Positions 9,687-43,366 of a DNA stretch of 45,526 nucleotides are shown piece by piece. This DNA is from Planctomycetota bacterium (lineage in GTDB: Bacteria > Planctomycetota > Planctomycetia > Gemmatales > Gemmataceae): assembly GCA_021325115.1 (NCBI GenBank), contig JAJPHU010000125.1, positions 1-45,526 of the forward strand. Direction: 5' to 3'. Position 1 is the stretch's first letter, and the number at the start of each line of letters is the position of its first letter. The notes beneath the pieces were generated by a model. It ran no database searches, was not told where the DNA came from, and saw only the letters and a program-made list of their open reading frames with translations. Made by a program: the position numbers and the translations under genes.

Positions 9687-9877
9687 GGGTGTCCCTCTCG
9701 ATTGGGGCGTGGAGGAGGGCTTACGTGCAAGCGGTCTTTTCCCTCCCCTTGTAGGGGAGGGTCAAGGTGGGGGGAAGTGTTTCGCCTGCGGATGCCTTAC
9801 CCACCCCAGCCCTCCCTCACAAGGAAGGGGGGAGTAGAAAAACCTACTCGGGGGAGGCTGACGCAATCCCGCTCGTC
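9687..9877. mobile_element. Degenerate MITE-like element, related to the copy at 26363..26499
   Basis: gggtgtccctctcgattggggcgtggaggagggcttacgtg...gtagaaaaacctactcgggggaggctgacgcaatcccgctcg matches the 26363..26499 element in inverse orientation; far TIR missing. Confidence 0.6.
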
Positions 9878-38504: not shown

Positions 38505-38510
38505 GTAGGT

Positions 38511-38678
38511 AGGCGAGCGGGGTTGCGTAATGGAACAGATAGGCGAGCGGGGTTGCGTAATGGAGCAGATAGGCGAGCGGGGTTGCGTAATGGAGCAGAT
38601 AGGCGAGCGGGGTTGCGTAATGGAACAGATAGGCGAGCGGGGTTGCGTAATGGAACAGATAGGCGAGCGGGGTTGCGT
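38511..38678. repeat. 30-bp tandem repeat, five full units plus a partial sixth
   Basis: Unit aggcgagcggggttgcgtaatggarcagat starting at 38511, 38541, 38571, 38601, 38631; partial at 38661. Confidence 0.95.
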
Positions 38679-38747
38679 CAGCGCCCCGAGGCCCCCGCTC
38701 GGGGTGTTGACGCAACCCCGCTCAGGGCGCTGACGCAACCTCGCTCG
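38664..38747. repeat. Palindrome at the end of the 30-bp tandem array
   Basis: cgagcggggttgcgtcagcgccc / gggcgctgacgcaacctcgctcg, 22/23, with an additional internal gttgacgcaaccccgctc copy. Confidence 0.75.
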
Positions 38748-38779: not shown

Positions 38780-39262
38780 ATGTTCGATGGTCCCTCCGTA
38801 GTCGCGGCTCTGGAAGACTGCGGAGTGACGCATGTGGTATGGATTCCCGACAGCGATATCGGCCGCTGGGAGCCGGCTCTGCGCACGGCCACACGCTTGC
38901 AGCTTCTGCGTGTCTGCCGTGAAGGCGAAGCCATCGCTTTGGCAGCCGGCTTGCACTTGGGCGGCAAGCGTCCCCTTGTTCTCATCCAATGCACCGGCCT
39001 GTTCGAGGCCGGTGATTCGCTCCGCAACATTGTCCATGATCTGCACCTGCCCCTCTTTTTTGTCATCGGCGTCCGCAGCTATTATGCCTATCAGCGCGGC
39101 GCCTCGACCGATAGCTGTCCCGTCTTTACCGAACCGATCCTGCGTGCCTGGCAGTTGCCCTACGTCCTCTTGGATAACCGTCACAGCGCTGCTGATCTGG
39201 CCGCGGCGTATCGGCAGGCGCAGGCGAAGAATCAGGCATTCGCTGTCCTTCTCGCGGAATGA
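38780..39262 (+). CDS. Sulfopyruvate/phosphonopyruvate decarboxylase-like, TPP-binding alpha subunit
   Basis: PYR-type TPP domain: VVWIPDSDIG, REGEAIALAAGLHLGGKRPLVLIQCTGLFEAGDSL. Overlaps the beta gene by ATGA. Confidence 0.8.
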   Translation: MFDGPSVVAALEDCGVTHVVWIPDSDIGRWEPALRTATRLQLLRVCREGEAIALAAGLHLGGKRPLVLIQCTGLFEAGDSLRNIVHDLHLPLFFVIGVRSYYAYQRGASTDSCPVFTEPILRAWQLPYVLLDNRHSAADLAAAYRQAQAKNQAFAVLLAE

Positions 39263-39837
39263 GTCTTGCCATGATGAGCTTACACGAAGCCCTGGAAATC
39301 CTGGCCCAGCATCGTGGACAGCGCATTGTCATTGCCACCATGAGTGCAGCTGGCATCTGGCCGAGCCTGTCGGATAAGCCGCTGGATTTCATCTATGTTC
39401 CCTCCGCAATGGGGCAAGGTCCATCACTGGCACATGGACTGGCCCTGGCTCAGCCCGAGCGCGGCGTCATTATCGTCAACGGCGACGGTTGCACACTCAT
39501 GAATTTAGGCTGCCTGGTGACGCTGGCGCAGCATCCGGCCAACGTGTATCTGTTAATTATCGACAACGGTTTGTACGAAGTGACGGGCGGCCAGCCGACT
39601 CCCGGCGCCGGCCGCACCGATTTCGCTGGACTCGCTCGCGCCGCCGGCATTGGCCGCGTCTACAGCTACGACAAGGTGGAGGCCTGGCGCGTCGGAGCGG
39701 CGGAGGCGCTGACGGGGCCAGGGCCAGTCGTAGTCTGGCTCAAAGTCCAAGGCCGCCTGGGCCAGCAGACCCCCAAGCCGCCACGACCCATGGCCGAACA
39801 GATCCAGCGCTTGCGGCAAGCCCTTGGCACCGAGTAA
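39259..39837 (+). CDS. Sulfopyruvate/phosphonopyruvate decarboxylase-like, TPP-binding beta subunit
   Basis: SAMGQGPSLAHGLALAQPERGVIIVNGDGCTLMNLGCLVTLAQHPANVYLLIIDNGLYEVTGGQPTP (GDG...N TPP motif). Confidence 0.83.
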   Translation: MSLAMMSLHEALEILAQHRGQRIVIATMSAAGIWPSLSDKPLDFIYVPSAMGQGPSLAHGLALAQPERGVIIVNGDGCTLMNLGCLVTLAQHPANVYLLIIDNGLYEVTGGQPTPGAGRTDFAGLARAAGIGRVYSYDKVEAWRVGAAEALTGPGPVVVWLKVQGRLGQQTPKPPRPMAEQIQRLRQALGTE

Positions 39838-39868
39838 TTTACAAGAACTCGAACAGAAAAGGGCGAAT

Positions 39869-40828
39869 ATGCCAGACAAGCAGAGAACACAACGTCGCTT
39901 TGGAATCGGCGAATGGTATGGCAAATCGTTTGTGACCCTTACTCCCGAAGAACGCCGACACTTCGCTGAAATTCAGCAATCGGAAGAAGTGGAAATTCCT
40001 TCTTGTCCATTTCTCTCGACGGAAGAGCAACGGCGTCCTTGCTGGAAGACGGGCGGCGTTTGCTCGTTACGGTCCTACGAACAGACAGGAAACGTCGTCC
40101 AAATCAACTCTGCTGGAAGTACTCCACGGGTAACCTGTCCAAGCCGATTTGAGGAAGGCGGCTTAATCTATCGCTGGATTGGTGAAACGCTTCTTGGCAA
40201 TGCCAATGCCGTTGCAGTGGGACAGGTTCCATTCCTGGAGCGTGTGCCGACGATGGGTGAAGACGACGAAGGCAAGACACGTAAAGGAGAAGGGGTAGGC
40301 CGTATTGATAACGTGTTAATCATCCCAAACACACAACCGCTGAAATGGTGCGCGATTGAAATCCAAGCCGTCTATTTTTCCGGCGACAAAATGGCAAATG
40401 ATTTCCGGGCCATCCTCCAACATCAGGGCGACTCTATCCCCTTTCCCGTTGGCCTTCGCCGTCCAGACTACCGCAGTAGTGGTCCAAAGCGGTTAATGCC
40501 TCAATTACAAATCAAAGTGCCTACGTTGCGGCGTTGGGGCAAGAAAATGGCCGTCGTGGTCGATGAAGACTTTCTTCGGAACATGGGGCGAATGCGTACG
40601 GTTGAGGATGTCTCTCTCGCCGACATTGCTTGGTTCACAGTGCGCTTTGAAGAACACGGAGACACCATACGACTGGCGCAGGGCGGGATCTATTACACCG
40701 AGTTAGAATCCGCCGTGTCAGGTTTGATTGCCGCCAAACCCGTTTCTCAAAAAATCTTTGAAGAGCGGATAGTCGCCAGGTTGGGGCAATTGAATGCGGA
40801 ACCAGGTGAGGTTACGACCAATAAGTAG
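39869..40828 (+). CDS. NotI-family type II restriction endonuclease
   Basis: Cys cluster CPFL...CWKTGGVCS...TCPSRF; GRIDNVLI...WCAIEIQAVYFSG; adjacent to a DNA methyltransferase. Confidence 0.8.
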   Translation: MPDKQRTQRRFGIGEWYGKSFVTLTPEERRHFAEIQQSEEVEIPSCPFLSTEEQRRPCWKTGGVCSLRSYEQTGNVVQINSAGSTPRVTCPSRFEEGGLIYRWIGETLLGNANAVAVGQVPFLERVPTMGEDDEGKTRKGEGVGRIDNVLIIPNTQPLKWCAIEIQAVYFSGDKMANDFRAILQHQGDSIPFPVGLRRPDYRSSGPKRLMPQLQIKVPTLRRWGKKMAVVVDEDFLRNMGRMRTVEDVSLADIAWFTVRFEEHGDTIRLAQGGIYYTELESAVSGLIAAKPVSQKIFEERIVARLGQLNAEPGEVTTNK

Positions 40829-41644
40829 TTCGCTCATGATAGCGTGATGGGTGTTTTTCATCTGCACTTCTTGAGTATCAAAATGAAATTTTGCCGCTAG
40901 TGCCCGGATTGGGCCTACGTTGTCGTAAGTCATGAGAAAATCGCCTTTCACGTCCGTCATGACGCGGAACAGTTCGTGATGGTCAATTTCCGAGTGCAGA
41001 TACAGGCGTCGGCCTGCAACGGTATACGGTGGGTCGATGAAAAAGACGACATCGGAACGATGAGCGTTGTCACGAAGGAATTGAATGCCGTCACCCTGGA
41101 AGAATGTAATGCGATTTTTCCGCTCCGCGATAGCATGAATTCTCTTAATGAGTGTTTGAACATACCATCGCGAAGATATACCGCGTCCATTCTCACCTTT
41201 CTTCATCAGACTCGCGCCTGGAGCCATGATGCCGCCGCGCTGAACGCGATTGCGTACAATTGTGGCAAAAGCGCGGTCGAGCAACGTTGCCGGTTCAGAA
41301 GAGAGAAGTTGCCGAACGGTACTTTCTCTCATATCAAAAGAGGCAATGCGTTCAATGAGTTGTTCCGCTCCTCCGTTGAGAATTGCTTGCCAGACTGCGC
41401 CGACATTTTCATCTCGCTCAACGAGCGTCAGCGTCTCCGCCAAGTTTTCAAAGATGACAGACAAACCAACAATGGCCCCGCCAGCGAAGGGTTCGCTAAA
41501 TTGGACGGGTTTGTAGGCAAGGCTTGCCAGCCATTGTCGAACGAGAGGAACAAGCCAGGTCTTACCGCCAGGATAGCGAAAAGGACTGCGATGAGGCACA
41601 CTGGCGACATTAACGATACGCTGTGAGAGTGGCTTCTTTTTCAT
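40718..41644 (-). CDS. D12-class (Dam-like) N6-adenine DNA methyltransferase
   Basis: SPFRYPGGKTWLVPL; SEPFAGGAIVGLSV; VVFFIDPPYTVAGRRLY (DPPY). Start at MKKKPLSQ, coupled TGATG with the upstream regulator. Confidence 0.9.
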   Translation of the reverse strand: MKKKPLSQRIVNVASVPHRSPFRYPGGKTWLVPLVRQWLASLAYKPVQFSEPFAGGAIVGLSVIFENLAETLTLVERDENVGAVWQAILNGGAEQLIERIASFDMRESTVRQLLSSEPATLLDRAFATIVRNRVQRGGIMAPGASLMKKGENGRGISSRWYVQTLIKRIHAIAERKNRITFFQGDGIQFLRDNAHRSDVVFFIDPPYTVAGRRLYLHSEIDHHELFRVMTDVKGDFLMTYDNVGPIRALAAKFHFDTQEVQMKNTHHAIMSELLIGRNLTWFRIQLPQPGDYPLFKDFLRNGFGGNQT

Positions 41645-41886
41645 CACTTGGTTCCTCTTTTTTGCTCTTCCGCAAACAGGTCGGCGATTGGTACACCGAC
41701 AGCCCGCGCGAACTTCCGCAGCATCGACACGCGCGGATCGTTTGTCCGACTGACAAACTGCCATGCCGCCTTGCGCGCCGTAGCACCCCGATAACCCATC
41801 CGTTGCCCCAGAGCTTCGAGAGTCAAACCAGATTGTGTGAACAGCTCTCGGACACGAAGCATGACTCGATCGGGTGATTCCTCCAT
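41644..41886 (-). CDS. XRE-type HTH regulator, candidate R-M controller
   Basis: RVRELFTQSGLTLEALGQRMGYRGATARKAAWQFVSRTNDPRVSMLRKFARAVGVPIADLF. Confidence 0.8.
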   Translation of the reverse strand: MEESPDRVMLRVRELFTQSGLTLEALGQRMGYRGATARKAAWQFVSRTNDPRVSMLRKFARAVGVPIADLFAEEQKRGTK

Positions 41887-41894
41887 GAATTAAG

Positions 41895-41923
41895 TCTATA
41901 CCACAATTGACAACTGCCGTCAA
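41895..41923 (-). promoter_or_regulatory. Sigma70-like promoter for the HTH-methyltransferase operon
   Basis: Minus strand TTGACG-17 nt-TATAGA; the start ATG lies 8 nt after the -10 box. Confidence 0.55.
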
Positions 41924-41933
41924 GCATTTCTGT

Positions 41934-43197
41934 CTACACCTGATGCTGACCATCATTCTTCCTATCGGACAAAGCCGGCGGCCGCAGGGGAAGCCGGATG
42001 CGGAACAGTGTGCCGCGGCCAATTTCGCTGTTGACCTCGATGCTGCCGCCGTGATCGCGGATGATGCCGTAACTTACCGACAGCCCTAAGCCGGTACCTT
42101 CGCCAACCGGCTTCGTTGTAAAAAACGGATCGAAAATGTGCGGTAAATGTTCCGGCTTGATCCCGCAGCCGCTATCCTGCACCTCGATCACTACTCCGCC
42201 GTCTGGAGAGGAATCCTCCGGCCGTGTTCGCACTTCGATCGAACCTCCGGGCTGGCTCGCTTGTATGGCGTTGAGCAGCACATTCAGGAACACCTGATTG
42301 ATCTTGCCGGGATGACACAGGACCGGCGGCAGCTCGGCGAAATGCGTCCGTAAATCAAGGGCCTTGTCCTTAATCTCGTGGCTAGCGATTTCCAGCGTCG
42401 ATTGCAGGGCGGCATTGAGGTCGGCCTCCTTGAACTCAGCCTCGTCGAGCCGGGCGAAATCACGCAGGTTTTTCACGATGTCACGCACCCGCTTCAGTCC
42501 TTCCAGCGAGCGCTCGAACAGCCGTGGCAAACTGGCGCGGATGTACGGCAAATCGATGTCCGCTTCAAGACGCTCCGCCTCGGCGACGATCTCCGGGGCC
42601 ACCCGCCGTAATTGCTCGCGGCCCGCGCGGTACTTGTCCAGGACTTGCAAGGCGGCCGGCACGTCGCGGCGCAGCACGGCGAGATTGTTGGCGACGTAGG
42701 CGATGGGGTTGTTGATCTCATGGGCCATGCCGGCAGCCAACTGGCCCAGGCTGGCCAATTTCTCCGTCTGCACCAGGGCCGCCTGCGCCTCGCGCAGCGC
42801 CCGATTCTGCGCCGCCAACGCCTGTTCCAATTCGACAATGCGTTCCCCGGCGCGCACCCGCACGCGCAGCTCGCCGCGGTCGAACGGTTTGGTCACGAAG
42901 TCGTTGGCCCCGGCCTCCAGTCCCTCGATCACATCCTGCTTTTGCGTTCGCGCCGTCAGCAGGATGATGTACGTAAAAGCCCCATTGGGACTGGCGCGGA
43001 TGTGGCGGACCAGCTCCACTCCATCCATCTGAGGCATCACCCAATCGCTGAGGACGAGTGGAAAAATCTCTTTCTGGAACAGTTGCCAAGCTTCCGCGCC
43101 ATCGGCTGCCGCCGTCACCTGATGTCCCCATTGCTGCAAGTACGCCTGGAGCAAATGGCGAGAAACCGCTTCATCTTCGGCAATTAGGATTTTCACG
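41934..43197 (-). CDS. Response-regulator receiver fused to sensor histidine kinase
   Basis: GTG start VKILIAEDEAVSRHLLQAYL; LVLSDWVMPQMDG; LASLGQLAAGMAHEINNPIAYV; GSGCGIKPE-like (DSGCGIKPEHLPHIFDPFFTTKPVGEGTGLGLSVSYGI). Confidence 0.92.
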
Positions 43198-43303: not shown

Positions 43304-43366
43304 GCGAGCGGAGTTGCGTGAGCGCTCCGAGGCACTCTCTCGGAGCGCTCACGCAACTCCGCTCGC
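43304..43366. repeat. Perfect 28-bp palindrome, GCGAGCGGRGTTGCGT family
   Basis: gcgagcggagttgcgtgagcgctccgag / ctcggagcgctcacgcaactccgctcgc, 7-nt loop. Confidence 0.9.

Follow-up and report, generated by a model that had tools for sequence, protein, structure and literature searches.

The window analysed here, a stretch of 45,526 nucleotides from a Planctomycetota genome, carries a gene for a NotI-family restriction endonuclease that faces a gene for an adenine methyltransferase. The recognition site of NotI, GCGGCCGC, contains no adenine. The locus thus raises the question of what an endonuclease with this pedigree would recognize, how its host would be protected and whether the long overlap of the two convergent genes serves a purpose of its own.

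Organization of the island

The features of the island are as follows.

39869..40828, + strand: R, NotI-family type II restriction endonuclease, 319 aa (ATG 39869 to TAG 40828)
40718..41644, - strand: M, D12-class (Dam-fold) adenine-N6 DNA methyltransferase, 308 aa (ATG 41644 to TGA 40718)
41644..41886, - strand: X, small HTH protein, 80 aa (ATG 41886 to TGA 41644)
40718..40828: convergent reading-frame overlap of R and M, 111 bp (from the sequence)
40781..40795: spacer between the conserved R and M cores, 15 bp (from alignments)
41907..41923: exact inverted repeat TTGAC-N7-GTCAA, a weak candidate operator just upstream of X
39841..41975: acquired segment, without counterpart in the same-genus genome G393 (blastn)

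The first-pass annotation, which described a NotI-like endonuclease, a D12 methyltransferase, an overlap of exactly 111 bp and a TGATG coupling, is accurate in all coordinates, frames and codons. At the junction of X and M, AAGTGATGAAA, the start of M is overlapped by the stop of X, and the stop of M is located within R, which settles the reservation that it might fall upstream of the overlap. An in-frame TTG upstream, at 39824, is a possible alternative start for R.

R resembles NotI in fold and active site

R matches the Pfam NotI profile (PF12183) with E 4.3e-62 and a score of 210 bits (cut-off 22), over profile positions 8-233 of 238. An AlphaFold model of R (pLDDT 93.6) returned a single significant match in the PDB from Foldseek, namely NotI with bound DNA (PDB code 3C25, chains A and B; E 6e-8, probability 1.00, TM 0.57, 13% identity). 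Alignment with 48 relatives assigns the Cys4 metal site to C46, C58, C65 and C90 and the catalytic residues to D147, E164 and Q166. The D...EXQ residues and the four cysteines are invariant or nearly so in this set, and every one of them is present in the full-length window R. NotI itself has been described with Fe in a Cys4 motif and with Q replacing K (PMC4081073). A profile built from the 48 relatives failed to retrieve the sequence of 3C25 even with the threshold relaxed to E 10, so the relationship of R to NotI itself must be old. From sequence and model together, R is predicted to be a PD-(D/E)XK nuclease of the NotI fold, in which an EXQ active site is combined with a Cys4 metal site; the earlier worry that it might resemble only non-nuclease proteins is answered by the nuclease fold and its catalytic residues. 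Such an enzyme would cut unmodified incoming DNA.

M belongs to the D12 adenine methyltransferases

M matches the Pfam profile MethyltransfD12 (PF02086, E 7.5e-9) and the PADLOC model MTase_II (E 7.8e-34). An alignment of 34 relatives places its DPPY motif at residues 204-207, and Foldseek matches its fold to Mcbe1 (PDB code 7m6b), DpnM and EcoDam (E 6e-15 to 1e-10), so that the D12 profile, the DPPY motif IV and the Dam fold are all found in M. Adenine N6 is methylated by D12 enzymes, and cytosine by C5 enzymes. We infer cognate methylation of the R site by M, which would N6-methylate an adenine within that site and thereby protect the host. The central region of M (approximately residues 132-161, NR..GGI.A.G...GE.G.G..SRWY) is conserved among the aligned D12 partners, a pattern that suggests a recognition site common to most of the family.

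A methyltransferase gene adjoins R at most loci

A pattern-based scan of 84,980 species genomes yielded 67 NotI-family loci, and a search found the family in 14 of 392 genomes of the phylum. Of 78 genome loci, counting the window, 76 have a methyltransferase gene beside R; at the other two (L063 and L074) no methyltransferase partner was identified. The partner is a D12 enzyme at 58 of these 76 loci and a cytosine-C5 enzyme at 18, proportions that are rough because the scan is a non-random sample. Convergent, R-then-M and M-then-R arrangements all occur. The D12 pairing is also carried by plasmids (the conjugative pEST4011, a 4-kb Aeromonas plasmid and Thermus pTbrSNM4-1c), as is the C5 pairing (pBN5 and a Sedimenticola plasmid). 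No phage-encoded relatives were found in INPHARED; IMG/VR contains 10 viral contigs with relatives, eight of the m5C type and two of the D12 type. The phrase 'NotI family restriction endonuclease' did not occur in the literature searched.

The suggestion that the two window genes form a restriction-modification (R-M) pair is strengthened by these counts, which show D12 enzymes as the regular partners in this branch of the NotI family. With separate, adjacent R and M genes that are conserved as a pair, the island has the ordinary architecture of a type II R-M system.

The recognition site should differ from that of NotI

In the 293 kb sampled of this genome GCGGCCGC occurs 30 times, corresponding to about 570 copies genome-wide, and one copy lies at 41978, just outside the island. 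As the site lacks adenine, an adenine methyltransferase could not protect these copies. Methylation of adenine by M therefore implies a site for R that includes an A:T pair and is not the NotI site: if R and M are a cognate pair, the R site cannot be GCGGCCGC. The same had been anticipated in the first-pass annotation, and both the assignment of M, by family, as adenine-specific and the abundance of GCGGCCGC lend it indirect support. The companion cytosine methyltransferase expected beside a NotI isoschizomer is not what adjoins R, the companion being the D12 enzyme.

The opposite view, that R keeps the NotI specificity and that the adenine methyltransferase M is unrelated or an orphan and gives no protection against R, draws on the fold match of R to NotI. 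We regard it as very improbable, as it would leave some 570 copies of GCGGCCGC unprotected in the genome, with an R only 13% identical to NotI. Moreover, the D12 enzyme is a regular neighbour of R in three arrangements and many phyla, and no C5 enzyme was found beside R at the D12 loci.

Statistics of palindrome avoidance did not reveal the site of the R-M system. GAGCTC (O/E 0.08 here) was rejected as a candidate since G393, a genome without R, and several members of the family are similarly poor in it; its strong depletion spans the genus as well as those family members, and this R-M system does not account for it. CAGCTG, which ranked first among the loci of the window clade, was rejected because genomes that do not carry the system are equally depleted. 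GTGCAC (O/E 0.19) and CTCGAG (0.22) are further hexamer palindromes that are strongly depleted in this genome.

Exchange of the partner methyltransferase

The methyltransferase type changes five times on the tree of R, and at least two of these changes are forced by well-supported branches. The R proteins of D12 tandem systems (L047-L053 and L079) are up to 84% identical to those of C5 convergent systems (L043 and L039), of which L044, L077 and L081 are close kin. The R lineage would thus have exchanged its protector between m6A (D12) and m5C while R itself stayed up to 84% identical. Protection by either chemistry requires a site in which both bases occur. A change of partner beside a nearly identical R points to one conserved site with both adenine and cytosine, and the recognition site that we take these systems to share very probably holds both bases, although specificities at 84% identity could differ through a few contact residues.

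Vsr repairs T:G mismatches that arise from deaminated m5C. Genes for vsr are found at 5 of 18 C5 loci versus none of 58 D12 loci (Fisher p 0.0005, an optimistic value because the loci share ancestry), and on four of the eight m5C viral contigs versus neither of the two D12 contigs. The vsr-type genes observed (at L043, L077, L085, L037, L044, L075, L196 and L200-L202) lie beside C5-type NotI-family systems only.

On balance we favour a single lineage of NotI-fold endonucleases with one site containing A and C, in which m6A and m5C protectors have been exchanged repeatedly, vsr accompanies the m5C form only and the window represents the m6A form. Nearly identical endonucleases with an m5C or an m6A partner would amount to a natural experiment in replacing the protector without killing the host.

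The 111-bp overlap is best read as a product of packing

Conservation stops at residue 304 (nt 40780) in R and at residue 283 (nt 40796) in M, so that neither core reaches into the other and the crossing is confined to the non-conserved C-terminal tails. The tail of M is predicted to be disordered, with pLDDT mostly below 50 for residues 291-308. Across 35 convergent D12 loci the cores are separated by a median of 17 bp, and the genes overlap in 29; in 19 of these the overlap amounts to 60 bp or more. The in-frame tails at these loci have medians of 27 nt (R) and 51 nt (M), and the distances to a stop in the other two frames are 60/57 (R) and 99/51 (M). In comparison with the copy from the same genus, the synonymous divergence of R drops from a pS of 0.71 outside the overlap to 0.37 inside it, while total identity is similar (0.68 versus 0.72-0.74). 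Such a pattern is expected if both frames are translated, and it is probable that the overlap genuinely codes on both strands.

The first-pass annotation allowed for antisense control of R by transcription of M. In a fuller form of this proposal, the overlap would be a selected regulatory device in which convergent transcription of M through the 3' end of R postpones cutting until the methyltransferase has done its work. Convergent gene pairs, like antisense control, are known from other R-M systems, overlap recurs in most of the convergent D12 relatives and the lowered synonymous divergence would fit a double constraint. However, overlap is slight or missing in many relatives, and tandem versions dispense with convergence altogether. 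The tails, which are not conserved, are also no longer than the stop distances of the other frames across the 35 loci, and the proposal, for which the separate cores offer no footing, appears unlikely to us. The overlap is best read as the by-product of two convergent genes packed core to core, given that the cores are 15 bp apart, only non-conserved tails cross and these do not exceed chance length; its extent needs no regulatory explanation.

The small HTH protein X

The gene upstream of M had been described as an XRE regulator translationally coupled to the methyltransferase. The coupling is as described; the family assignment is less firm, as the HTH matches of X are all below the Pfam cut-offs (HTH_31, 19 bits versus a cut-off of 27), and X is not a conserved component of the system. 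PADLOC returns weak matches to capH and control-protein models (E 9e-4 and 6e-3). No homologue of X was found in any other R-M locus examined, on which ground its candidacy as a conserved component was rejected, and an HTH gene upstream of M is mostly absent at the other loci. X is probably a regulator of the X-M operon, whose expression it would tune.

A more specific role is conceivable in which X, like the controller of C-dependent R-M systems, initially holds R back and later acts as a repressor of the X-M operon. An HTH protein of 80 aa coupled to M, the weak control-protein match and the inverted repeat TTGAC-N7-GTCAA upstream of X all lend themselves to this role. We consider it doubtful nonetheless, as the HTH matches are sub-threshold, X is coupled to M rather than to R and neither X nor, in most cases, any upstream HTH gene accompanies M elsewhere. 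Furthermore, the inverted repeat was spotted post hoc, and no promoter in its region passed the criteria of the scan.

Signs of acquisition and decay within the genus

The impression that the island is less GC-rich than its surroundings is borne out by GC contents of 0.519 (R), 0.502 (M) and 0.572 (X), versus 0.58-0.63 in four neighbouring genes, and by GC3 values of 0.525, 0.505 and 0.568, versus 0.64-0.73. In the closest relative, the same-genus genome G393, which lacks R, homology ends at 39840 and restarts at 41976 (blastn). Two genes border the resulting 2.1-kb acquired segment with their 3' ends, one for a TPP-enzyme subunit and one for a response regulator/histidine kinase. A clean empty site was not seen in G393, where the flanking genes are on separate contigs, so the comparison shows absence of the segment rather than an exact empty site. 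After one same-genus copy, the nearest relatives are from Acidobacteriota. Horizontal gain, as surmised earlier, accords with the low GC and GC3, the absence from G393 and the affiliation of these relatives.

The same-genus copy, in G392, encodes an R that is 67% identical to the window R and is disrupted by an in-frame TGA and a 10-residue deletion. A further genome of the genus, G394, has a second, distant NotI-family/D12 pair in tandem (L131, 7383-9289), in which R is interrupted and M is open. With broken R genes in two same-genus genomes, activity of the window R is not certain, and the window system might itself be decaying, with R already inactive and the methyltransferase alone maintained. 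We think this improbable, as the window R retains its full length and all catalytic and Cys4 residues. Most of its divergence from G392 also accrued under purifying selection (dN/dS 0.12 for R; 0.08 for the sampled part of M). The picture that emerges is one of gain, use and decay of R-M systems inside one genus.

Directly upstream of R, at 38780-39837, two short adjacent genes encode a thiamine-diphosphate enzyme in two parts, its N-terminal half and its C-terminal half; the gene for the latter is also present in relatives without R. Further upstream, at 38510-38747, is a tandem array of 30-bp units (5.6 copies, 98% match), together with palindromic GC-rich units with a GAGCGGGGTTGCGT core. 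Related copies are located near 9861, 21294, 26385 and 43306-43351, and the palindromic units recur genome-wide, with eight more in the 247 kb sampled. Homology to G393 skips approximately 38523-38724, as if the 30-bp array were absent there. The array looks like a dispersed REP-like element.

Comparison with known systems

Taken together, the evidence makes it highly probable that the island is an acquired type II R-M system with a NotI-fold endonuclease, a protecting methyltransferase, a site containing A and C, a protector chemistry exchanged during its history and an overlap arising from packing. The database label 'NotI family' invites the assumption that GCGGCCGC is cut; the adenine partner argues otherwise for most of the members sampled. 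A new specificity on a NotI fold could serve as a reagent.

R shares with NotI (3C25) its fold, the Cys4 site and active-site residues of the D/EXQ type in the expected order, but differs from it in sequence, with identity as low as stated above, and in having an adenine methyltransferase as partner. M has the fold and DPPY motif of the D12 adenine methyltransferases Dam, DpnM and Mcbe1, to which it is 13-20% identical, but unlike them adjoins a restriction endonuclease gene, and their GATC specificity is not implied for M.

PMC9519451 presents PD-Lambda-5 as a compacted form, found in prophages, of a system that joins RM and Abi. The PADLOC model for its B component is matched by M (E 3e-48), whereas neither R nor X matches the PD-Lambda-5_A component; with a match to the B-type methyltransferase only, the island was rejected as a PD-Lambda-5 defence system.

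The systems that pair a NotI-family R with a C5 methyltransferase (for example in Paraburkholderia pBN5, Caballeronia and Gallionellaceae) have endonucleases up to 84% identical to those of D12 systems, and some are convergent; they differ in their cytosine-C5 partner and, sometimes, in the presence of vsr. The plasmid loci of pEST4011, Aeromonas (on the 4-kb plasmid) and Thermus pTbrSNM4-1c carry the same gene pair, annotated automatically as a NotI-family R and a 'DNA adenine methylase'. Their genes are arranged in tandem, R then M, and their R proteins share 48% or 26% identity with that of the window.
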